Shown: positions 558-8,362 of the stretch, in pieces
Numbering within the stretch: the stretch's first letter is position 1
How the letters are laid out: each line of letters opens with the position of its first letter
Assembly: GCA_002840405.1 (NCBI GenBank)
Contig: PHAR01000004.1
Span: forward strand, 139,936 to 203,935
Source: Deltaproteobacteria bacterium HGW-Deltaproteobacteria-8
GTDB lineage: Bacteria; Desulfobacterota; Desulfovibrionia; Desulfovibrionales; Desulfovibrionaceae
Direction: 5' to 3'
Length of the DNA: 64,000 nucleotides
Notes under the pieces: model-generated
The model's input: only the letters and a program-made list of their open reading frames with translations
The model's database searches: none
Told to the model about the DNA's origin: nothing
Program-made: the position numbers and the translations under genes

Positions 558-713
558 ATGTGTCTTGAGGTGCGCCCCCCGGAAATTCTTGGGCTGCTGC
601 TTGAGCATTTGGTTTGTGGTGAGCCTTGGGCTCGCCGCCGCATGCCGCAGCAGAATCAGGATTGGAGGCCCGTCTCCCCAAATGGATCAGAATCTTTGAA
701 CTGCCTGTTTTGA
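558..713 (+). CDS. Small hypothetical protein, 51 aa
   Basis: A 51-codon frame opens with ATG at 558 directly after AAAGGAGG, a near-perfect ribosome binding site five bases away, and closes with TGA just before the group II intron fragment. The protein begins MCLEVRPPEILGLLLEHLV and contains the run ARRRMPQQNQDW. It matches no family I know. Support is the ribosome binding site and the plausible leucine-rich helix; against it are the small size and the degraded surroundings. It could be the remaining 5' end of a longer gene interrupted by the intron. Confidence 0.35.
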   Translation: MCLEVRPPEILGLLLEHLVCGEPWARRRMPQQNQDWRPVSPNGSESLNCLF

Positions 714-850
714 CCTAGGGCAATGACCGGTAGCCAGCCGGTATCCAACGCCTAGCCAGCTCGGATGTTTCATGTTGCCCGTACTGGAGAGCCGTGTGCG
801 AAGGAAACTCGCCTGCACGGTTCGGGGACCAGTTGCATCAGCTACTCTGG
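714..850 (+). mobile_element. Group II intron 3' fragment (domains V and VI)
   Basis: Positions 789-823 fold as a typical domain V: GAGCCGTGTGCGA pairs with TCGC and TGCACGGTTC around an AGGAAAC loop, with the two-base bulge on the 3' side. It is followed by a short stem CCAG...CTGG at about 829-850 with a GCTACTC segment that looks like domain VI with its bulged branch-point A. The upstream sequence resembles the end of domain IV. No reverse transcriptase gene is present. Domain V is the best conserved part of group II introns, so the recognition is fairly firm; the exact ends are not. Confidence 0.6.
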
Positions 851-862
851 CGGAAGCCTGAG

Positions 863-1540
863 GTGTGAAGTGTAATTGAGTCCATTCGTTTTGATGGTGG
901 TGCGCTTGGATACGTTGAATGCCGCAAACCCCGGAAACCGGGGTCACGGGACGATACCTGCACCCTAACGGGCATGGGTCGTGACGTGGAAGGGACGCAG
1001 TGGCCGCGCGTGACGAAACCAGCTTGGTCGCTGGAGATAAGCACGATGCGGTTAGAGCAATTGCGTTAAAGGGTGAAAGCCCGACCTGTACCGCTATGGC
1101 GACGAGAGGAACTATCGATTTAAAACTCATGCGCTAGCCCTGGAGTAACGACCCGCTGTGACACCTCGGGGTCTGAAAAGAGCGAATACCAAGAGCAGTG
1201 CCTTGGTGGTGAAAGCATGAGCACAGATAGCGCCTAAGGCGGATGAAAACGGCATGTGGGGTAAAAGCCCACGGTGGCGTACTGCAACGTTAGCAGCCCG
1301 GTATTGGCTGGACGAGCAAGTGCCATTTCGACGGAATCGAGGATGAAACCTGTGGGCTACCAAGCCCGCAGGACACAGAGGCATCGTAGTAATCTCCCGC
1401 AAGGGCAACGTCTGCGTCCGACCACAAGTAAAGAGCTTGTGGCAGGTATTGGCTGGCTACCAATCCGTTAGCGAAGGACAGATGGGGCGAGGAAATGCGC
1501 CCGGACGAAGGATGCCAGGTAGGTCAAGGCAGTGATTTTG
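863..1540 (+). mobile_element. Group II intron 5' part (domains I-III-like), ORF-less
   Basis: This begins with GTGTG at 863, fitting the GTGYG 5' end of group II introns, and holds domain I-like pieces such as GGGTGAAAGCCCGACC (around 1070), GGCGACGAGAGGAAC (around 1096) and GGTAAAAGCCCACGGTGGCG (around 1260). Many short hairpins are visible and no open frame is credible. The sequence stops near 1540 before any reverse transcriptase would start. It lies directly 3' of a domain V/VI fragment, so the order is 3' end then 5' end, as in tandem copies. Boundaries are approximate. Confidence 0.5.
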
Positions 1541-1567
1541 AGAAATTTGGCAATAGGGAAACGAAGA

Positions 1568-1595
1568 GAGGGGCCGCAAGGCCCCTCTTAATTTT
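1568..1595 (+). terminator. Intrinsic terminator after intron fragment
   Basis: GAGGGGCC and GGCCCCTC form an 8-bp stem closed by a GCAA tetraloop, followed by TTAATTTT. It would end plus-strand transcripts that leave the intron fragment. Confidence 0.6.
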
Positions 1596-1829: not shown

Positions 1830-2039
1830 CTACCGGGGCATGTCTATTGTTCCCTCCTTGCTGTCACGCTTTTGCGAGCCCACGAGTTCGCCGTATTCGT
1901 CCCGCAGCTCACCTTCCTCGGCCTGCTTGTAGTCCATAAGGTACTCGAGTTCCTCGAGATCCTTGGTCTGAGACGGCGCCGGGTAGATGGCCTGCACGTT
2001 CTTGCCATTGGCGCACTTGAGCAGTGCAACGTATCTCAT
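1830..2039 (-). CDS. Small hypothetical protein, 69 aa, second gene of a coupled pair
   Basis: The frame starts at ATG 2037-2039 and overlaps the upstream 32-codon ORF by ATGA, so its translation is probably coupled. A longer in-frame version exists, but this start has an AAAGGA motif ten bases upstream. The product begins MRYVALLKCANGKNVQAIYP and then becomes strongly acidic, with DLEELEYLMDYKQAEEGEL. It has no membrane segment or cysteine motif. I do not recognise the family. Its partner is basic, which may suggest a complex, but this is inference only. Confidence 0.5.
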   Translation of the reverse strand: MRYVALLKCANGKNVQAIYPAPSQTKDLEELEYLMDYKQAEEGELRDEYGELVGSQKRDSKEGTIDMPR

Positions 2040-2455: not shown

Positions 2456-2561
2456 AGCCGCCCATAGGGCGGAAAATGAAAGAGAGTCTTGCTGTTGAGT
2501 CCTGAAACGTGAGCGAACTCTTGTTTCTACTCATACTTCTTTTCAGCCGCCCAGAGGGCGG
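2455..2561. repeat. Pair of near-identical short hairpins
   Basis: CAGCCGCCC-ATA-GGGCGG (2455-2472) and CAGCCGCCC-AGA-GGGCGG (2544-2561) are the same 18-base hairpin with one loop change, 89 bases apart. Role unknown; they could be protein-binding sites in RNA or DNA. Confidence 0.6.
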
Positions 2562-2919
2562 AGGTAAATCCCTCTCACCCCAAATATGTATCCCAGGTCG
2601 CAGAACTTTGTCAACACATTTCTGCAGCAAAAGCAGCTGCCTAAGAGATTTCCAATCAGCGTGCGGTATTGACCTGCACGGAGTCATGATCCGCCGTCCC
2701 CAGAGCAACAAAGAACCTAAGTGCTGCCGGATTTATGGGCGCTTGCATATTTCTCATGCCCAGGAAAAAGGAAAGAAGGAAAAAGGAAAGCGGCCCCACC
2801 GTGGCCGCAAAGGAAAGAAGGAAACGTGCAGGTCAGAATCCTATACTGTCATGGGTGTAGGCGTTCCGTCACCAAACAGTGGCGGACATAGGAACAGCGC
2901 ATAGCACTGGCCTCTTAAA
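2562..2919. other. Gene-poor stretch with purine-rich tract
   Basis: No gene is convincing here. A plus-strand frame covers part of it but has no ribosome binding site and low-complexity sequence. A purine-rich run (about 2760-2835) of GGAAAGAAGG-type units is interrupted by the hairpin GCGGCC/GGCCGC at about 2789-2808. Confidence 0.4.
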
Positions 2920-2923
2920 CAAT

Positions 2924-2948
2924 GCTAGAGCCCGTGGGGGGCTCTAGC
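2924..2948 (-). terminator. Hairpin downstream of the 3002-3904 gene
   Basis: GCTAGAGCCC and GGGCTCTAGC form a perfect 10-bp stem with a five-base loop. Read on the minus strand it lies 54 bases after the stop of the unknown paralog gene and is followed by ATTGTTT, so it is probably that gene's terminator. Confidence 0.5.
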
Positions 2949-3001
2949 CGATGGTCATGATGAGTTGCCTCTAGGCGAGGCCTTGAACTTCTTGGCGCGG
3001 G

Positions 3002-3904
3002 CTATCTGTTGGCCGAGTGTGCATGACTGTCTGGGTCGGCTGCCACGAACAAGTGGTTGAATGGCGTGTTTTCATCAACACGGGTCCCGTCACGGCTGAC
3101 GCCATTGCGCCAGATGTGTTGGGCGGATTTGAGCCGCGGCACGTCCACATGCCAGGCTCTCAGGTCAACACTTTCCTTGGTCGACGCTTGCTTGATGAGC
3201 TTAGCGTTAAAAGGGTCCTGCGCCTTGTGCCGTATCCTGCATGCCCTCTCAATGTCCCGCGCGTGGTTGATGCTCCTTTGGTCGATCGGTCCCGGCATCC
3301 ATGACTCTCCCCACCCGCGCGCAAAGTGCTCGAGCACATGATCCGAGATGCTCTGCGGAACCTGTGCCACGAAGACGACCCCGCGTCCTTTAACAAAGGA
3401 TACAACCTCGTCGGAAGCCGATCGCGCGAACTGGCCATTGGACCACAAGTGCCCGGCCACGCGGAACGGCGCAATCACGGGGTCTCCAGCGGGGACAAGC
3501 AGGCCACAGACTTGCTGCATCTGTGCGATGATGTTGCCCTGCGTATCCGCCCAAGCGCCCACTGTCGTAAGCTGATCGTCTTCCACTCCCATTGAGTAGT
3601 AGGCGAAGCGGCTGCCGTCAGTGTTGTAGTCCACGGCGCAGGGCAGCTTGCGCAATGCCCACAGGATCGGGGACGTGAACGGGACCCCACTTGCGCAAGC
3701 GATCATCCCGCGCTGCACGGAGATGACATCGCGCAGGGCAGAGAGATGTGCTCTGCCGCTCCGGTCCAGCATACCGGCTACGCTGAAGCCCTTGCTGGCG
3801 TCCAGGACCAATTCCCTTGTCTTGACTGCGCGGCAAGGGCGTCCAGTTCTGTGGCTGAGAGCAGGGAGCTCAATGCCGTGCCTCAAAGTTGCGAGGATGT
3901 ACAT
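3002..3904 (-). CDS. Unknown protein, paralog A of an island-borne pair, 300 aa
   Basis: The start at 3904 (MYILATLRHG) was chosen because AAGGA lies nine bases upstream and because it aligns with the start of the paralog at 5276; a longer frame would add 15 residues. The two proteins align along their whole length. Shared blocks include RTGxPCRxVxTRxLxL near the N-terminus, LRDVIxVQ, a central GxIxAQMxxVCGLLxP, then IxPFRxxGHLWxxGxFAR, EVVSF, WGExWxPG and a C-terminal IWxNGxxRxG. No signal peptide, membrane segment or familiar catalytic motif is visible. It may be a soluble enzyme, given the conserved Cys, His and Trp positions. I do not recognise the family. It is transcribed towards the candidate RNA region and faces away from its paralog. 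Confidence 0.85.
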   Translation of the reverse strand: MYILATLRHGIELPALSHRTGRPCRAVKTRELVLDASKGFSVAGMLDRSGRAHLSALRDVISVQRGMIACASGVPFTSPILWALRKLPCAVDYNTDGSRFAYYSMGVEDDQLTTVGAWADTQGNIIAQMQQVCGLLVPAGDPVIAPFRVAGHLWSNGQFARSASDEVVSFVKGRGVVFVAQVPQSISDHVLEHFARGWGESWMPGPIDQRSINHARDIERACRIRHKAQDPFNAKLIKQASTKESVDLRAWHVDVPRLKSAQHIWRNGVSRDGTRVDENTPFNHLFVAADPDSHAHSANR

Positions 3905-4051
3905 GTTGTATTGTCCTTGTTGAGGTTGATGAGGAGCCAATCCTGCCACACGGAAAAACAGCGGCGCAAGGTCTAGCCAAAAGAAAAGGTTAACTTATCT
4001 CGTGCGTTGTGTGGATGGTGAGCTGATTTTGAAGCGTCCCGCTAGGGTGGG

Positions 4052-4079
4052 GACGGGGGGGCAGGAAGCCCCCCCCGTC
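4052..4079 (-). terminator. GC-rich hairpin downstream of the 4163-4510 gene
   Basis: GACGGGGGG and its complement CCCCCCGTC pair around a short loop. It sits about 85 bases after the stop of the acidic membrane protein on the minus strand. No U-run follows, so the termination role is likely but not certain. Confidence 0.45.
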
Positions 4080-4162
4080 ATGCGGCACCCGCTATTGCGC
4101 TTTGGCGGCAGCAGACCCGTGAATACCCCTGCAGCCAGAGGGAAGGGGCCTTTAGCGGTGGG

Positions 4163-4510
4163 CTAGTCGTCGTCGAAACTGCTAGACCAGCTGTCGTCGC
4201 AGGCACTGAAGGAATCATCGTCGTCGTTGGATAGCCACGAGTTGTCATCAAGGCTGGAGTCAAACATGTCGTGGTAGATGTTGTATGGAAGGTAGGCGTA
4301 GGTGATGTCTGTGAGCATGCTCGTCAGCATCGATATGCCGCACATACCTATGCCAAAGCCATAGGCGCTGCTGCCACTGTCCAAGTCCCAGTCCTCCTCC
4401 TCCATGCAGGCACGGTCCTCGGAGATCACAGTCTCTTCGGTCTTCTCTCGGGTGCGCAGGTACCAGGCAATTGCCGCAAAAATGATCGCGCTGATGATGA
4501 TTCCGGCCAT
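4163..4510 (-). CDS. Small acidic one-TM protein, 115 aa
   Basis: ATG at 4508-4510 follows AGGAGA. Residues 3-18 (GIIISAIIFAAIAWYL) form one membrane segment, followed by RTREKTEE. The rest is acidic and Ser/Asp-rich, ending in SFDDD, with a middle part (about 48-80) richer in Gly, Ile and Tyr that could form a second, weaker hydrophobic patch. The family is unknown to me. The composition suggests a small inner-membrane protein with an acidic tail. It lies between the two unknown paralogs, so a shared role is possible but unproven. Confidence 0.6.
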   Translation of the reverse strand: MAGIIISAIIFAAIAWYLRTREKTEETVISEDRACMEEEDWDLDSGSSAYGFGIGMCGISMLTSMLTDITYAYLPYNIYHDMFDSSLDDNSWLSNDDDDSFSACDDSWSSSFDDD

Positions 4511-4591
4511 GTTCTTCTCCTGGTTTGTTCCTTTTGACCTGCTGCCAATATAGCAGAAATAGGCAAAAGAGCCCAGGACAAAGTGATCAAT

Positions 4592-4753
4592 TTAGGCATG
4601 TTGAATATCTTTCTGGTAGTGTGTGGCTACTTGGGCGGTAGTTTTTAGGGAGGTGCTTGAGATGCCCATGCCATTTGCCCCGGTGGAGTTGGACCGGGTT
4701 GGTATATGTGGAGGCACCCCGCAAGGTTTTGGAGGTACCGCATAGGAAGCCAT
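4592..4753 (-). CDS. Small hypothetical protein, 53 aa
   Basis: The start MASYAVPPKPCGVPPHIPTR is preceded by GGGAGAA. An upstream in-frame ATG would add eight residues but has no ribosome binding site. The product is rich in Pro, Thr and Ser and ends HYQKDIQHA. No family is recognised. The main support is the ribosome binding site; it may be spurious. Confidence 0.3.
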   Translation of the reverse strand: MASYAVPPKPCGVPPHIPTRSNSTGANGMGISSTSLKTTAQVATHYQKDIQHA

Positions 4754-4863
4754 TGGCTTCTCCCTTTTGCACCGCATTCTGTCGACATAGCGACCTATCA
4801 GCTATCTATGACCGGAGCCCCCCGAAAACATCTCCGACCGTCGCCCGCAGCGAACAGCCAGCG

Positions 4864-4936
4864 CGAGCAAGCGGCACGCCGCAAGGCGCGGCGTAGCCGC
4901 CCCCGGAAGGGGTCGCCTTGCGGCGTGCCGCGCTCG
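4864..4936. repeat. Long interrupted inverted repeat (cruciform-forming)
   Basis: GCGGCACGCCGCAAGGCG at 4871-4888 is exactly inverted at 4914-4931, an 18-bp perfect stem. A further five base pairs (CGAGC/GCTCG) extend it past a two-base bulge. The 25-base centre contains a second small stem CCCC-GGAA-GGGG. The inner segment CCGGAAGGGGTCGCC also occurs at 1713-1727. It ends 25 bases before the minisatellite. Confidence 0.75.
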
Positions 4937-4961
4937 TGCTACCCTGCGGATAGCGATGGTT

Positions 4962-5117
4962 GGCGGAAGGAAACTGGGCGGAAGGAAACTGGGCGGAAGG
5001 AAACTGGGCGGAAGGAAACTGGGCGGAAGGAAACTGGGCGAAACTGGGCGGAAGGAAGCTGGGCGGAAGGAAGCTGGGCGGAAGGAAGCTGGGCGGAAGG
5101 AAGCTGGGCGGAAGGAA
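4962..5117. repeat. 15-bp minisatellite, about 10 units
   Basis: The unit is ACTGGGCGGAAGGAA. The left half holds four full A-type units after a partial one; then comes a shortened unit, then one more A-type unit, and the right half holds four units starting GCTGGG. Because 15 is a multiple of three, several frames on both strands stay open and give apparent repeat proteins, so coding in any of them is doubtful. It lies 160-310 bases upstream of the paralog B gene. Confidence 0.9.
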
Positions 5118-5275
5118 ACAAGGAAGGCTGGGCTATGCTGGAAATTGGCTCGCGATCATATCGACGGCCCATTGGAACAAAATATCCTGAGACGCTCTAA
5201 GGGGGGCTCTCAAAGTGAACCAGGCATGCTAATCGGCTCCGGTCTTTCTCCGAGACCACAACCAAAGGAGCTTTC

Positions 5276-6235
5276 ATGCCGATCGTTTATGTCCTCACTA
5301 CCCTTTCCAGCAGCATTGTCCTCCCCGGCCTGTCACGGCGCACCGGGGAGCCGTGCCGCATCGTTTCGACCCGGCAGTTGATCCTCGCCTGCGACCATGC
5401 CGAGGCAATCAGCCTTGTTGGCTGCCTCGACCCTCGCGGCGAAGTCTTTCGCGTCGCAGTTCGCGACATCATCGCCGTCCAAAAGTGCCTGATCGCCCAC
5501 GCAGAGGAACTACCCAGAGGCGGCAGGGTTATCCAAACCCTTGAGGCGCTTGCTCCGGCCGCGTTCCACTACGACGCTGGCGCAACGCCCTATGCCTACT
5601 GTTCCCTCGGCACGCAAGACTCGGTCGAACTCATTGGCGCCTGGCCGTCACAGCACGGCGACATCACAGCGCAGATGCTGCCCGTGTGCGGCCTCTTGAT
5701 TCCAGTGACAGACTCAATCATACCGCCGTTCCGGCAGATTGGGCACCTCTGGCCACATGGCGACTTCGCCAGGCCTTCCGGCTCAGAAATTGTATCTTTT
5801 ATCAGGGCGCCGGGCGTGATGTTCGCAGCCCGATACCCGCTTGAACTGGCGGCGAGGGTCATTGTGCGTAACGTGCAAACATGGGGAGAGACGTGGGCGC
5901 CGGGCGAAATTTCGGAAGAGGCAAAAAAGGTTGCCGCAGACATCGTGCGGCAGTGCAAGCCGCGCCGACACACCCCCCTGACGCATGACATGCTGCGCAG
6001 CGCCCTTGAGCAGCCGCCGCTGGAGGACATTGGGGATTTGCGGCATGACTATGCGCCGACCTCCCGCGCTGCGCGCATGATTTGGCACAACGGTCGAACG
6101 CGTTCGGGCGTATGTCTTTCGGCCGATAATTGGGCGGTGAACAAGCTCTTCATCACTTCAGACGAGACGTTGGACCAAAAAAGACAGAGGAGGCTCAAGC
6201 TGATCGGCGAAGGGATCACATCTGGAGAACTCTAG
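5276..6235 (+). CDS. Unknown protein, paralog B of an island-borne pair, 319 aa
   Basis: ATG at 5276 follows AAAGGAG at a good distance. The protein begins MPIVYVLTTLSSSIVLPGLS and aligns over nearly its full length with the minus-strand gene at 3002-3904. Shared blocks include RTGEPCR, RDIIAVQ, DITAQMLPVCGLLIP, IGHLWPHGDFAR, EIVSF, WGETWAPGEI and a C-terminal IWHNGRTRSG. It has about 15 extra residues at the C-terminus (KRQRRLKLIGEG). No known domain is recognised. Divergence between the copies is strong, so the duplication is old or the two were acquired separately. The gene converges with the recombinase across the terminator at 6259-6292. Confidence 0.88.
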   Translation: MPIVYVLTTLSSSIVLPGLSRRTGEPCRIVSTRQLILACDHAEAISLVGCLDPRGEVFRVAVRDIIAVQKCLIAHAEELPRGGRVIQTLEALAPAAFHYDAGATPYAYCSLGTQDSVELIGAWPSQHGDITAQMLPVCGLLIPVTDSIIPPFRQIGHLWPHGDFARPSGSEIVSFIRAPGVMFAARYPLELAARVIVRNVQTWGETWAPGEISEEAKKVAADIVRQCKPRRHTPLTHDMLRSALEQPPLEDIGDLRHDYAPTSRAARMIWHNGRTRSGVCLSADNWAVNKLFITSDETLDQKRQRRLKLIGEGITSGEL

Positions 6236-6258
6236 ATTTATCCGACTTGACAATGAGA

Positions 6259-6292
6259 CGTGGGCGAGAGGGCTCCATCCCTTTCGCCCACG
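6259..6292. terminator. Bidirectional hairpin between convergent genes
   Basis: CGTGGGCGAGAGGG pairs with CCCTTTCGCCCACG around a six-base loop, with one G-T wobble. It lies between the convergent paralog B and recombinase genes. Confidence 0.55.
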
Positions 6293-6353
6293 AGGGGCCG
6301 GAAGATTTGCTCTCCGAGTCAAGAGATGCCCGCGTCAGTTCGTCAGCCAGCCG

Positions 6354-8066
6354 CTACTCCTCCTCGTCCTCTTCGGCTCCGAGCTGCATAGTTGCGCGAC
6401 CGACGTAGGTCCGAGCCGTCAGTGTGCCCTTGGCGCCGATACGCTTGTTCTTCTCGATGCGCGTCCATTCCCGGTTCACGAGCTCATACGCCGTGCCCGC
6501 GCGCGTCTTGATGCGGATCAGGTGGTCCTCATGGAACGCCACGTCCTCGATAACCGCACGCATCTGGTTCGCGATGCGCAAGCGGCGGGAGTAGATGGCT
6601 TCGTCGGACATGTCGATGTTCTCTGGTAGCTGCTCGCTATAGGCTTCTTCGACAAGGCGGAACAGGACCGCGGACTGCGCGGCCTCGCGGGCTTCAGCCG
6701 CGCCTGCACGCGCTGCGGAAAGCTGCTTTTCAATCAAGGTACGCCTCGTGTTGGTCTTCTCCAGCTTGCTGATAAGTTCAGGCATGTTCGAGAGATTCTG
6801 ATTCTCCATAGCATCGAGATAGCGCGAGAGGATCGCCTTTTCTCTGGTCAGCTGCGCGTCCAGGTCCTGCACACGCTCCAGATGCTGCTTCTGCCGCTCG
6901 TCATGCACTCCGGCGGCTTCGACGATGTCGATGTCGGACATGACGCCAGACAGGATGAAGTTCTCCATGTGCAGGTAGCTGTAGTACTGCTTGTTCCTGC
7001 ACCCGCCCTTTTTGAGCGAACTTGAGCAAGCCAAGTAGATAGCCCAAGGGCGCAGGCCATTTTTTCGGGTAGAGTCTTTAGTGTGGCTGAGATACCGCAT
7101 CCGGGCACCGCAAACTGCACAGCGAGTCATGCCCTGAAAAAGGTTTGAGTATTTCTTGCCCTTCCGCCCCGCATGGTTTTCTCGCCGAAGCCGAGTCTTG
7201 TCTTGGATCAGTTTGAACGTGTCTTTGTCGATGATCTCTGGGTAGTAATTTTCAATGATACCGGCTGAAGTCCTTTTGCCACTGACGGTCACCTCCGGGT
7301 GATATTCGCCAATTACCGCATGGTTATGCAGCAGCTTGAAGATGTAGCTCTGGTGCCATACCGGCTTGCGCTTGTTCCATGCCGGGACGCCTTGTTCCGC
7401 CAGCATGTCAGCGATCTTTCCCTGCCCCTTGCCTTCGGAGTACCAGTCGAAAATCCGTTTGACGATCTCGACCCGCTCGGGAATCAGCTTGAACTTGCCG
7501 CCTTTCAACTTCATCCAATTTGGACATTGCTTGCTGACGGGTTTTCCAACTTTCGCCTTCGAATGCTTGGTTTTCCAATTTTCAATGGATCGTGTAGACT
7601 TCATTGCGCTTTCTTTGTTCGAACGCGACATGTCATTGAGCAGCTGAAGAAAGTCATCGAAGTTGATCTGGCTGAAGATTTTTTCTTCTGAGATGATGCC
7701 GAGCAAAAGCCCATAGTCGAAGATGTTGAGCAGAAGACGAACGGCTGGTTGCAGCTCATCTCGCGACAGCCTGTCAACGGACTCCACGATCAAGAGCGTT
7801 CCATCCGCAAACGCGCCTTTCTGCGCCATTTTGAGGAACTCGGCCAATTCGCCTTGTAAGGAGTTGGTGCTGCGGAACGCGGATTTGCCGATGTCCTGCA
7901 CGTAGTCGACGATCTCATACCCGTGCTGCGCGGCGAACTGTTGCGCAGTATCGCGCTGCCGACGTTGCCCGTCGCCGGCGGCTTGCGCTTGTGAGGAGAG
8001 GCGGATGTATGCATACGCCTTGGCCATGGGCCGAGGGTCTGGTGCGGGCGCGGTGGGTTTCTTCAT
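6354..8066 (-). CDS. Large serine recombinase (site-specific integrase), 570 aa
   Basis: Likely integrates or excises the island by a serine-linked strand exchange. The N-terminal resolvase domain (about 14-165) has YAYIRLSSQAQ with the catalytic Ser at residue 24 and a RLSRDEL motif near 107. A recombinase domain follows (about 180-290), then a zinc ribbon with CAVCGARM and CSSSLKKGGC, and a coiled-coil stretch around 400-460, the usual layout of large serine integrases. The start chosen (MKKPTAPAP) follows a TATAAT box only seven bases away, which would give a leaderless mRNA; another ATG lies three codons upstream and a third, MAKAYAYIRL, downstream. It is at the right edge of the island, next to nrdD. 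Confidence 0.93.
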   Translation of the reverse strand: MKKPTAPAPDPRPMAKAYAYIRLSSQAQAAGDGQRRQRDTAQQFAAQHGYEIVDYVQDIGKSAFRSTNSLQGELAEFLKMAQKGAFADGTLLIVESVDRLSRDELQPAVRLLLNIFDYGLLLGIISEEKIFSQINFDDFLQLLNDMSRSNKESAMKSTRSIENWKTKHSKAKVGKPVSKQCPNWMKLKGGKFKLIPERVEIVKRIFDWYSEGKGQGKIADMLAEQGVPAWNKRKPVWHQSYIFKLLHNHAVIGEYHPEVTVSGKRTSAGIIENYYPEIIDKDTFKLIQDKTRLRRENHAGRKGKKYSNLFQGMTRCAVCGARMRYLSHTKDSTRKNGLRPWAIYLACSSSLKKGGCRNKQYYSYLHMENFILSGVMSDIDIVEAAGVHDERQKQHLERVQDLDAQLTREKAILSRYLDAMENQNLSNMPELISKLEKTNTRRTLIEKQLSAARAGAAEAREAAQSAVLFRLVEEAYSEQLPENIDMSDEAIYSRRLRIANQMRAVIEDVAFHEDHLIRIKTRAGTAYELVNREWTRIEKNKRIGAKGTLTARTYVGRATMQLGAEEDEEE

Positions 8067-8073
8067 GCTGCGC

Positions 8074-8102
8074 ATTATAGCGCCTGACGCGGCGGGTAGC
8101 CA
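8074..8102 (-). promoter_or_regulatory. Recombinase promoter, probably leaderless
   Basis: A perfect TATAAT (8074-8079 on the minus strand) lies 7 bases upstream of the ATG at 8066, and TGGCTA at a 17-base spacing could serve as a weak -35. The predicted start point falls at or next to the ATG itself. Confidence 0.45.
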
Positions 8103-8180: not shown

Positions 8181-8362
8181 ATATTAATTTAATACATCCC
8201 CAGATCCCGCCAAAGGGCCTGAGGCCCTCTGGACTCCCCATATCAAGCGAAAGGGCTGGGACGCGCGTCGCGCGTCCCAGCCCTTTCGCTTGAATCGAGG
8301 GGGCCCGGGGGAAATCATTTCCCCCGGCGGGGTCCAGGGGCAGAGCCCCTGGCGCCTTGCCC
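8181..8362. repeat. Composite intergenic repeat, copy 1
   Basis: This segment holds AGGGCCTGAGGCCCT, a central long palindrome (8243-8293), GGGGGAAATCATTTCCCCC, and CCAGGGGCAGAGCCCCTGG, all self-complementary. The same building blocks (CCAGGGGCT...CCCCTGGACCCCGCCGGGG) recur at 12,628-12,680 next to another long hairpin. Such elements are frequent between genes in GC-rich Proteobacteria; this is general experience, not a search result. It marks the return to host-like sequence. Confidence 0.6.
8243..8293 (-). terminator. 51-bp near-perfect palindrome after nrdD
   Basis: The 25-base arm begins TCAAGCGAAAGGGCTGGGAC and its exact complement follows after a single central base. It lies about 70 bases past the nrdD stop. 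There is no U-run, so it may act as an mRNA-stabilising hairpin rather than a strict terminator. Confidence 0.5.

Follow-up and report, generated by a model that had tools for sequence, protein, structure and literature searches.

Two proteins of about 300 residues, encoded in opposite directions on either side of a small acidic protein, an inverted repeat and a short tandem repeat, raise the question of what such a locus does for the DNA that carries it. The locus lies in a stretch of 64,000 nt, here called the window, and its protein-coding features are listed below.

3002..3904, minus strand: P0001, paralog in family F00, 300 aa from its ATG (ORF, BLASTP, family alignment)
4163..4510, minus strand: acidic protein, N-terminal stretch hydrophobic, motif YAYxxxNIYH
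5276..6235, plus strand: P0002, family F00, 319 aa (ORF, BLASTP, family alignment)

The F00 family and its neighbours

The initial annotation had described the two larger proteins as full-length paralogs of no recognised family, and the analysis bore this out. Their open reading frames lie on opposite strands, the proteins share 39% identity over 298 columns (BLASTP, E 4e-69), and the blocks CGLLxP, GHLWxxGxFAR and WGExWxPG are present in both. By the family alignment, P0001 begins with the ATG at 3904 and not with the GTG at 3949. Searches of Pfam, PHROGs, NCBIfam, PADLOC, a PDB profile database and Foldseek (PDB, BFVD) gave nothing significant for either protein. The family was carried by 11 of the 15 genomes of Humidesulfovibrio, the genus of the window, and by none of 44 relatives outside it. 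By title, the literature on Humidesulfovibrio includes groundwater viromes and no integrative elements. F00 was not found in phages or plasmids, nor in IMG/VR by a pattern scan with one protein, which detects close relatives only. Genomes with F00 hold many divergent copies (up to 11 matches, fragments counted), and P0002 had a dN/dS of 0.16-0.22 against its 7 closest other aligned copies (77-93% identity). The set of 41 copies used below leaves out three loci with broken pieces (L098, L099, L100) and includes near-identical copies from different genomes (L011/L065, L074/L075).

F00 prefers a slot beside a recombinase gene. In 32 of the 41 copies a recombinase or transposase gene lies less than 700 nt from the 3' end of F00, and four kinds occur, as assigned by Pfam on representatives: serine (19, convergent), tyrosine (6, convergent), another tyrosine type (3, tandem) and IS1595-type (4, tandem). 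That the recombinase type changes while F00 stays speaks for a job of F00 that is independent of any one recombinase. The other nine copies comprise three second copies of divergent pairs, three with less than 1.2 kb of downstream sequence (L085 and both of L088), and L071, L086 (integrase at 1,513 nt) and L087; there is no recombinase at the 3' end of P0001 itself. A divergently encoded acidic protein with the YAYxxxNIYH motif accompanies 12 of the 41 copies. The linkage proposed initially thus stood for the recombinase and the acidic protein, but not for the divergent pair as a unit, which is uncommon (3 loci): most F00 copies are single, yet their neighbours are common to several loci. The small protein is indeed acidic, and its single transmembrane segment is our reading of the N-terminus. 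F04, which lies upstream of F03 and F00, was also considered as a relative of an Integrase_1 protein that follows the fold described below in another genus; this was unsupported, both alignments being shallow.

Foldseek found nothing significant in the PDB for the AlphaFold2 model of P0002 (pLDDT 85.9, pTM 0.85), and the best Z-score of the whole F00 model in VIA was 2.2. Folding by part covered the N-terminal domain alone, which is predicted to be five-stranded. Its best VIA match was weak (4f7u_G, Z 4.2, rmsd 3.2 Å, 57 aligned residues), the 50 VIA matches shown were mostly Sm/LSm proteins by title, and Foldseek gave no match for it at E ≤ 0.001. A WYL domain, suggested by eye, found no support: hhalign against seven WYL domains gave 0.1% probability (E 0.67), a control comparison with an unrelated family found as little support, and PF13280 was not among the five families listed in a Pfam scan of 35 F00 members at E up to 1. 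The predicted N-terminal domain resembles the small barrels of Sm/LSm and WYL proteins in its five strands but differs from both in having no sequence support, and the structural match to Sm is weak. A weak or absent structural match does not in itself establish a new fold.

The folded element at the F00 loci

Two noncoding features lie between the acidic protein and P0002.

4827..4972, plus strand: conserved structured element (models R1 and R2), 147 positions, 39 pairs
4962..5119, plus strand: tandem array of GGCGGAAGGAAACTG (TRF: period 15, 10.9 copies, score 253)

The repeat of 18-bp arms, at first taken for a cruciform, is a perfect inverted repeat (4871-4888 / 4914-4931); of the 15 pairs listed for 2500-7000, no other is complementary throughout. 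It is not just a cruciform: it forms the main stem of the larger structured element, hereafter the fold. The 15-bp minisatellite also noted there is apparently a variable tandem expansion of the 3' motif of the fold.

The fold is conserved at F00 loci. With matches counted up to E 0.018 on whichever strand scored better, and with one match at L099 as well as weaker opposite-strand mirror matches at the same places left out, 23 of the 41 F00 copies had it upstream in the same orientation. The distance to F00 is 143-308 nt in 16 of these and ∼2.6 kb in 7, where two more genes lie between; two of the seven more distant matches are weak (E 0.003 and 0.018). The 18 copies at which it was not found include five with less than 600 nt of upstream sequence, three second divergent copies and ten that simply have none.

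Paired positions covary. In alignment A5, 28 of the 39 pairs changed on both sides against 15.1 ± 2.1 after shuffling (0/500), a test that does not take the tree into account, and 93.8% of cells were paired; because A5 follows the model, its pair counts are biased in favour of the structure, and both A5 and R2 hold one wrong-strand row (L084 minus) that is in the A5 counts and was later dropped. In alignment A3, made by MAFFT without structure and itself the source of the predicted structure, G-U occupied 33 cells and A-C none. Rfam 15 at gathering thresholds gave no match to the fold in L011, L009, L070, L065 or 12 loci outside the genus, the latter yielding tRNAs only, and a permissive search of window positions 4600-5300 returned only E 1.3 or worse. 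Between 2400 and 6400 no sigma-70 promoters were found, and there were 7 terminator-like sites against 4.2 ± 2.2 in shuffles.

In L067 and L069, F00 is 86% and 83% identical to P0002 and the fold only 77%; in L070 and L009 the protein is 83% and 82% identical and the fold 97%. By these identities the fold and F00 evolve out of step with each other and reassort.

The fold in different mobile elements

The stretch at 3002-6235 had been placed in an otherwise decayed island. Instead it forms part of the recombinase end of an apparently integrative element of ∼10.3 kb with conserved relatives, which has the following further features.

701..1585, plus strand: conserved noncoding region of the same element
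1830..2039, minus strand: small conserved protein (MRYVALLKCANGK...) of the same element
6354..8075, minus strand: P0004, large serine recombinase of 573 aa, convergent with P0002
8188..8199, plus strand: TTTAATACATCC, right end, common to 7 other loci

P0004 carries Resolvase, Recombinase and Zn_ribbon_recom domains, all above the Pfam cut-offs, and matches PHROG 95 (integrase); this N-terminal resolvase, recombinase and zinc ribbon series is that of a large serine recombinase. The putative right end TTTAATACATCC was placed from eight loci that have it and from comparison with other copies of the terminator-like host hairpin that follows it at 8206-8232; no sequence matching a left attachment half was found. 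In the noncoding region, group II intron domains 5-6 lie at 787-885 (RF00029, 49.7 bits, above gathering) and conserved noncoding sequence runs on 3' of them, a predicted layout of circularly permuted group II RNA. In plasmids the region had a single 45-nt match only. Family F10 was considered as a group II maturase and set aside, the Pfam GIIM match being below the cut-off (17.4 bits against 23); F10 was not found in plasmids. P0001-P0005, the element's own F05 and relatives of F10 and F15 had no Pfam match to relaxases or to proteins of mobilization, transfer or replication; a 125-aa ORF near the left end lies outside this set.

The fold extends well beyond the genus. Of 348 Desulfovibrionales genomes, 60 carried a match to model R2; the model finds its own training loci by construction, and of the 14 genera with the fold 4 hold such loci and 10 do not. 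Elsewhere in the order the fold sits in mobilizable elements with relaxase, MobC and integrase genes, in an IS21-type element, in small units flanked by terminal inverted repeats, and next to a gene for an Integrase_1 protein. The terminal repeats of the small units presumably resemble ISL3 ends, a likeness on which we do not rely. At eight outside loci (L194, L195, L201, L202, L205, L206, L208, L211) the fold has an integrase gene on its 3' side, encoded on the other strand and no more than 2.6 kb away, and in five of them (L195, L201, L202, L205, L211) relaxase and MobC-like genes lie 5' of it, both transcribed away (Pfam above cut-off in L195 and L211, below in L202). At L200 the integrase relative sits elsewhere. 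The F00 profile had no match in 34 fold loci. The fold recurs without F00 in different mobile elements, so its role is bound neither to F00 nor to any one downstream gene. Blastn at E 0.01 found the fold neither in plasmids (query L205) nor in phages (query from the window), and combined literature searches found nothing on Desulfovibrio with a structured RNA or mobilizable element. As far as is known, each type of mobile element usually carries its own sites and RNAs; a strongly covarying fold without an Rfam match across elements with different modes of movement is unusual.

Candidate roles and known systems

We read the locus as an element-borne maintenance or transfer module in which the strand-specific fold is widely common and F00 is a lineage-specific partner or cargo (probability about 0.5). 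The fold, as RNA or as folded single-stranded DNA that is produced or uncovered while the element moves, would be the part of general use and would assist the transfer, copying or upkeep of the element; the acidic membrane-type protein and F00 would serve this task as accessory proteins peculiar to the genus. We infer that the fold works for the element as a whole, not for a gene beside it, and that F00 is its partner in this; for F00, element maintenance is a possible role. Against this reading stand the unequal identities of fold and F00 between loci, the ten copies that simply have no fold, the acidic motif at no more than 12 of the 41 copies, and the absence of Pfam matches to relaxase, transfer or replication genes in the window's own element. 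A bolder version, in which serine, tyrosine, IS21-type and terminal-repeat elements each acquired the fold as a portable mobility module acting as RNA or folded single-stranded DNA, and Humidesulfovibrio added a new Sm-like-barrel protein family, is in our view speculative and unlikely to hold in full.

A possible alternative, towards which we lean less, takes the fold for a single-strand origin or an oriT-like site, folded on the transferred DNA strand for second-strand synthesis in the recipient or mobilisation in trans. Single-strand origins are described as orientation-specific stem-loop regions, one of them in an ICE (PMC4595007). The eight outside loci with a 3' integrase on the opposite strand, and the five with relaxase and MobC-like genes on the other side, fit this, but the G-U cells and absence of A-C cells in A3 suit RNA at least as well, and L200 departs from the arrangement. 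The fold also occurs in the IS21-type element and the small terminal-repeat units, and to our knowledge neither kind moves as conjugative single strands. If such a site is present, it would help to explain the spread of Desulfovibrionales elements without transfer genes. Compensatory changes with G-U pairs suit an RNA, and it is conceivable, though unlikely, that this is a small RNA directed by mobile elements against host or rival elements (immunity or anti-defence) and bound by F00. The weak Sm/LSm likeness of the N-terminal model would suit an RNA-binding partner, but a Z-score of 4.2 alone means little when Foldseek has no match, and fold and protein reassort. The defence role suggested initially was also unsupported, as PADLOC gave 0 matches for 10 proteins from the elements described here. 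Should the fold be an RNA, the question becomes a simple one, that of its binding partner, and F00 offers a genus-specific candidate with an AlphaFold model (pLDDT 86).

Two further readings concern F00 itself. It is doubtful that F00 is cargo, with an accessory role for the host and only a chance place in the slot adjoining the recombinase: the many divergent copies per genome and the lack of a link to one recombinase type are in favour, but 32 of 41 copies adjoin a recombinase or transposase and only L071, L086 and L087 are left unexplained by second copies or short flanks. The fold as a cis-regulatory leader at the head of F00 transcripts would match the 16 copies with the fold closely upstream on the same strand; this is very improbable given the two genes that intervene in seven copies and the other genes, often on the opposite strand, that lie downstream outside the genus.

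The maintenance or transfer module preferred here has partial counterparts among known systems. Like an integrative mobilizable element (IME), the window's element is small, apparently integrated and equipped with its own recombinase at one end, and relatives of its fold sit with relaxase, MobC and integrase genes; it differs in that neither relaxase nor MobC is among its scanned proteins. The 701-1585 region resembles circularly permuted group II RNA (PMC8637638), with domains 5-6 at the 5' side of ∼0.9 kb of noncoding sequence; it is a neighbour of the fold and F00, known here from domains 5-6. The fold itself can be set beside sso1 of ICEBs1, which is likewise an orientation-specific noncoding stem-loop region on a mobile element (PMC4595007). 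This is a likeness of arrangement, and the fold has the wider range of carriers, IS-like units included.

The F00 proteins and their distribution

The divergent pair of genes described in the initial annotation was recovered in place, together with the ORF of the acidic protein, the inverted repeat (18-bp arms) and the array of 15-bp units:

3002..3904, minus strand: P0001, protein family F00
4163..4510, minus strand: acidic gene, recognized by the motif YAYxxxNIYH
4827..4972, plus strand: structured element of ∼147 nt (the fold), with the 18-bp inverted repeat as its main stem
4962..5119: tandem array, period 15
5276..6235, plus strand: P0002, family F00
6354..8075, minus strand: serine recombinase

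The paralogy of P0001 and P0002 was confirmed (E 4e-69, 298 columns, 39% identity). Since the family alignment starts at 3904, the ATG at this position is most likely the start codon of P0001, not the GTG at 3949. Close F00 copies were under purifying selection, with a dN/dS of 0.16-0.22 between P0002 and seven other copies of 77-93% identity. An AlphaFold2 model of F00, based on 35 sequences, had a pLDDT of 85.9 and a pTM of 0.85; in this prediction the N-terminal two thirds are beta-rich and the end is helical. Foldseek returned no match at E <= 0.001 for the model in PDB and BFVD, and again none in PDB for the N-terminal domain folded by itself (pLDDT 88.1). The VIA matches of this domain were mostly weak ones to Sm/LSm barrels (Z up to 4.2), a predicted likeness that may reflect merely a common arrangement. 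A relation of the N-terminus to WYL, suspected by eye, found no support on comparison.

The window's own genome contained four F00 copies. A search of 59 genomes with P0002 gave matches in 11, all within the same genus (11/15, vs. 0/44 outside), and P0001 as query likewise matched 11 of the 15 genomes of the genus. In a scan of GTDB species genomes, the matches fell in Humidesulfovibrio (the window's genus), Desulfovibrio or unclassified bins. F00 relatives were also present on the contigs L124 and L128 (3.0 and 3.4 kb), from bins labeled Patescibacteria and Verrucomicrobia, which is possibly a case of mis-binning. Phage records, plasmid records and a pattern scan of IMG/VR gave no F00 match.

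Recombinases next to F00 and the ends of the element

The gene neighborhood of F00 copies was surveyed over as much as 20 kb of sequence, in which ORFs were called and clustered, followed by profile searches on 41 copies, a set that leaves out three loci with broken F00 copies. At 32 of the 41 copies, a gene for a recombinase or transposase was located 700 nt or less from the 3′ end of F00. Of these enzymes, 19 large serine recombinases and six tyrosine integrases were convergent with F00, at distances of 70-182 nt as counted to the profile's aligned part; three tyrosine integrases of another type and four IS1595-type transposases were in tandem with it. The acidic gene, identified by its motif, was divergent to F00 at 12 of 41. 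The nine copies without such an enzyme nearby were the second copies of L011 (the window's locus), L065 and L069, those of L071, L085 (919 nt from the contig end), L086 (nearest integrase at 1,513 nt) and L087, and both L088 copies (with 1,169 and 48 nt left before the contig end). A divergent F00 pair occurred only at L011, at L065, which is nearly identical to it, and at L069; with three such loci among the 41 copies surveyed, this arrangement is therefore not the rule.

At six loci (L089, L091, L092, L093, L095, L096) the serine recombinase had a form of ∼750 aa whose gene, on the opposite strand, overlapped the F00 3′ end by ∼390 nt, with similarity between loci kept in both frames (identity over the last 128 residues 59-95% for the recombinase and 77-95% for F00). 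Another layout was observed at L010, L081, L083 and L091-L096, where two genes, F04 (weakly integrase-like) and F03, were situated upstream of F00; at seven of the loci they separated the fold from F00.

Between the window's genome and another (L011 vs. L065), the right-hand 8 kb of the element were 97-99.6% identical, with different genes beyond the right end. The right end, TTTAATACATCC, was common to eight serine-recombinase loci that diverged after it, and was absent from others, e.g., L010. Beyond it lies a host sequence:

8206-8232: terminator-like hairpin, CCCGCCARAGGGC...GCCCTYTGG

This pattern occurred 17 times in the genome, here and at 16 other places; a reversed control pattern gave 0. 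A second hairpin, in some cases imperfect, preceded 14 of the 15 copies away from F00 elements (counted by eye) and was missing at both copies adjoining F00 elements (L011, L010). The probable insertion site of the serine recombinase is therefore the interval between the tandem hairpins of a gene-end terminator. On the left side, homology to other elements stopped ∼10.3 kb from the right end, beyond the window, and the left half of the target, expected at the element's left end, was not found there.

The fold and its occurrence beyond the genus

A query of 190 nt spanning the inverted repeat matched 16 loci. The alignment of 14 of these showed a single long stem interrupted by an internal loop, together with a closing stem and two apical hairpins. 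In the MAFFT alignment A3, from which the structure itself was predicted, 98.0% of 506 cells were paired, and both-side changes were present at 8 pairs vs. 2.8 ± 1.3 in shuffles (1/500). In the wider alignment A5, fitted to the model and including one wrong-strand row (L084 minus) in its pair counts, both-side changes were present at 28 of 39 pairs vs. 15.1 ± 2.1 in shuffles (0/500), and, with that row dropped, 979 cells included 64 G-U vs. 17 A-C. A3 held 33 G-U cells and no A-C among its non-standard cells, which points to one particular strand, either as RNA or as single-stranded DNA, and away from a double-stranded cruciform. No Rfam family matched the fold at its gathering score, and below gathering none had E < 1.

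The purine-rich repeats 3′ of the fold varied in unit and copy number by locus: 15-mers at L011, L070 and L009, 8-9-nt units around GGAAAC or GGAATC at L073, L082, L084, L067 and L069, and nearly no repeats at L074, L085, L087 and L089. The array thus appears to be an expansion, variable in length, of a motif located at the fold's 3′ end.

With the first model of the fold (R1), 17 strong copies were found in the genus; the copy G008:C15, which ends a contig, had an acidic gene alongside and no F00 in view. Among 149 relatives, R1 located the fold in 16, seven of them outside the genus. The second model (R2) gave matches in 60 of 348 genomes of the order (E <= 0.001), spread over 14 of 59 genera, four of the 14 with and ten without R2 training loci; in a phylum sample it matched eight of 395 genomes (E <= 1e-4), four belonging to other families outside the order sample. 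The F00 profile had no match in 34 loci fetched around fold matches, two of which (L192, L212) belong to the window's genus and are shortened by contig ends.

At eight fold loci, a relative of the L195 integrase was encoded on the opposite strand, 3′ of the fold, and five of these loci had a relaxase and a MobC-like gene on its other side; at L200 the integrase relative was placed elsewhere. Pfam matches were relaxase, MobC/NikA and integrase (L195), relaxase and integrase (L211), integrase with a relaxase below the cut-off (L202), integrase (L208), and IS21-type IstB plus transposase (L204). In other genera, the fold was inside ∼265-bp units with terminal inverted repeats of 23-29 nt (L179, L183, L186, L191); the arms reported at L181 were longer and differed more from each other. 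Five loci of one other genus had a unit in common, from 25-30 nt before the fold to about +1,500, whose protein at L196 was Integrase_1 (Pfam). L207 kept both ends of this unit with ∼0.65 kb absent between them, and L197 and L199 shared an additional 1.3 kb upstream.

Possible role and the group II-like region

The place of F00 beside four kinds of recombinase, and of the fold in varied elements with other neighbors, argues for a function that serves the element as a whole. The reading we favor, at roughly even odds (about 0.5), is a maintenance or transfer module. The fold and F00 have evolved out of step, which counts against a tight RNA-protein pair. A role in defense, also raised initially, gained no support from PADLOC. 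The same element contains a further conserved region:

701-1585: group II-like region, with RF00029 (group II intron domains 5-6) at 787-885, then ∼700 nt of conserved noncoding sequence

The genus contained 14 domain 5-6 matches (permuted layout checked for part of them): seven within 7 kb of F00, three at 11-25 kb on the same contig, and four on contigs without F00. A shorter second copy of the noncoding region, without the domain 5 part, was present at L089:4071-4739. PMC8637638 describes a circularly permuted group II RNA with domains 5-6 at the 5′ side and calls its biological role unknown, so the frequent place of such a layout in a mobile element is worth noting. The region at 701-1585 resembles that RNA in having its domain 5-6 match 5′ of conserved noncoding sequence.
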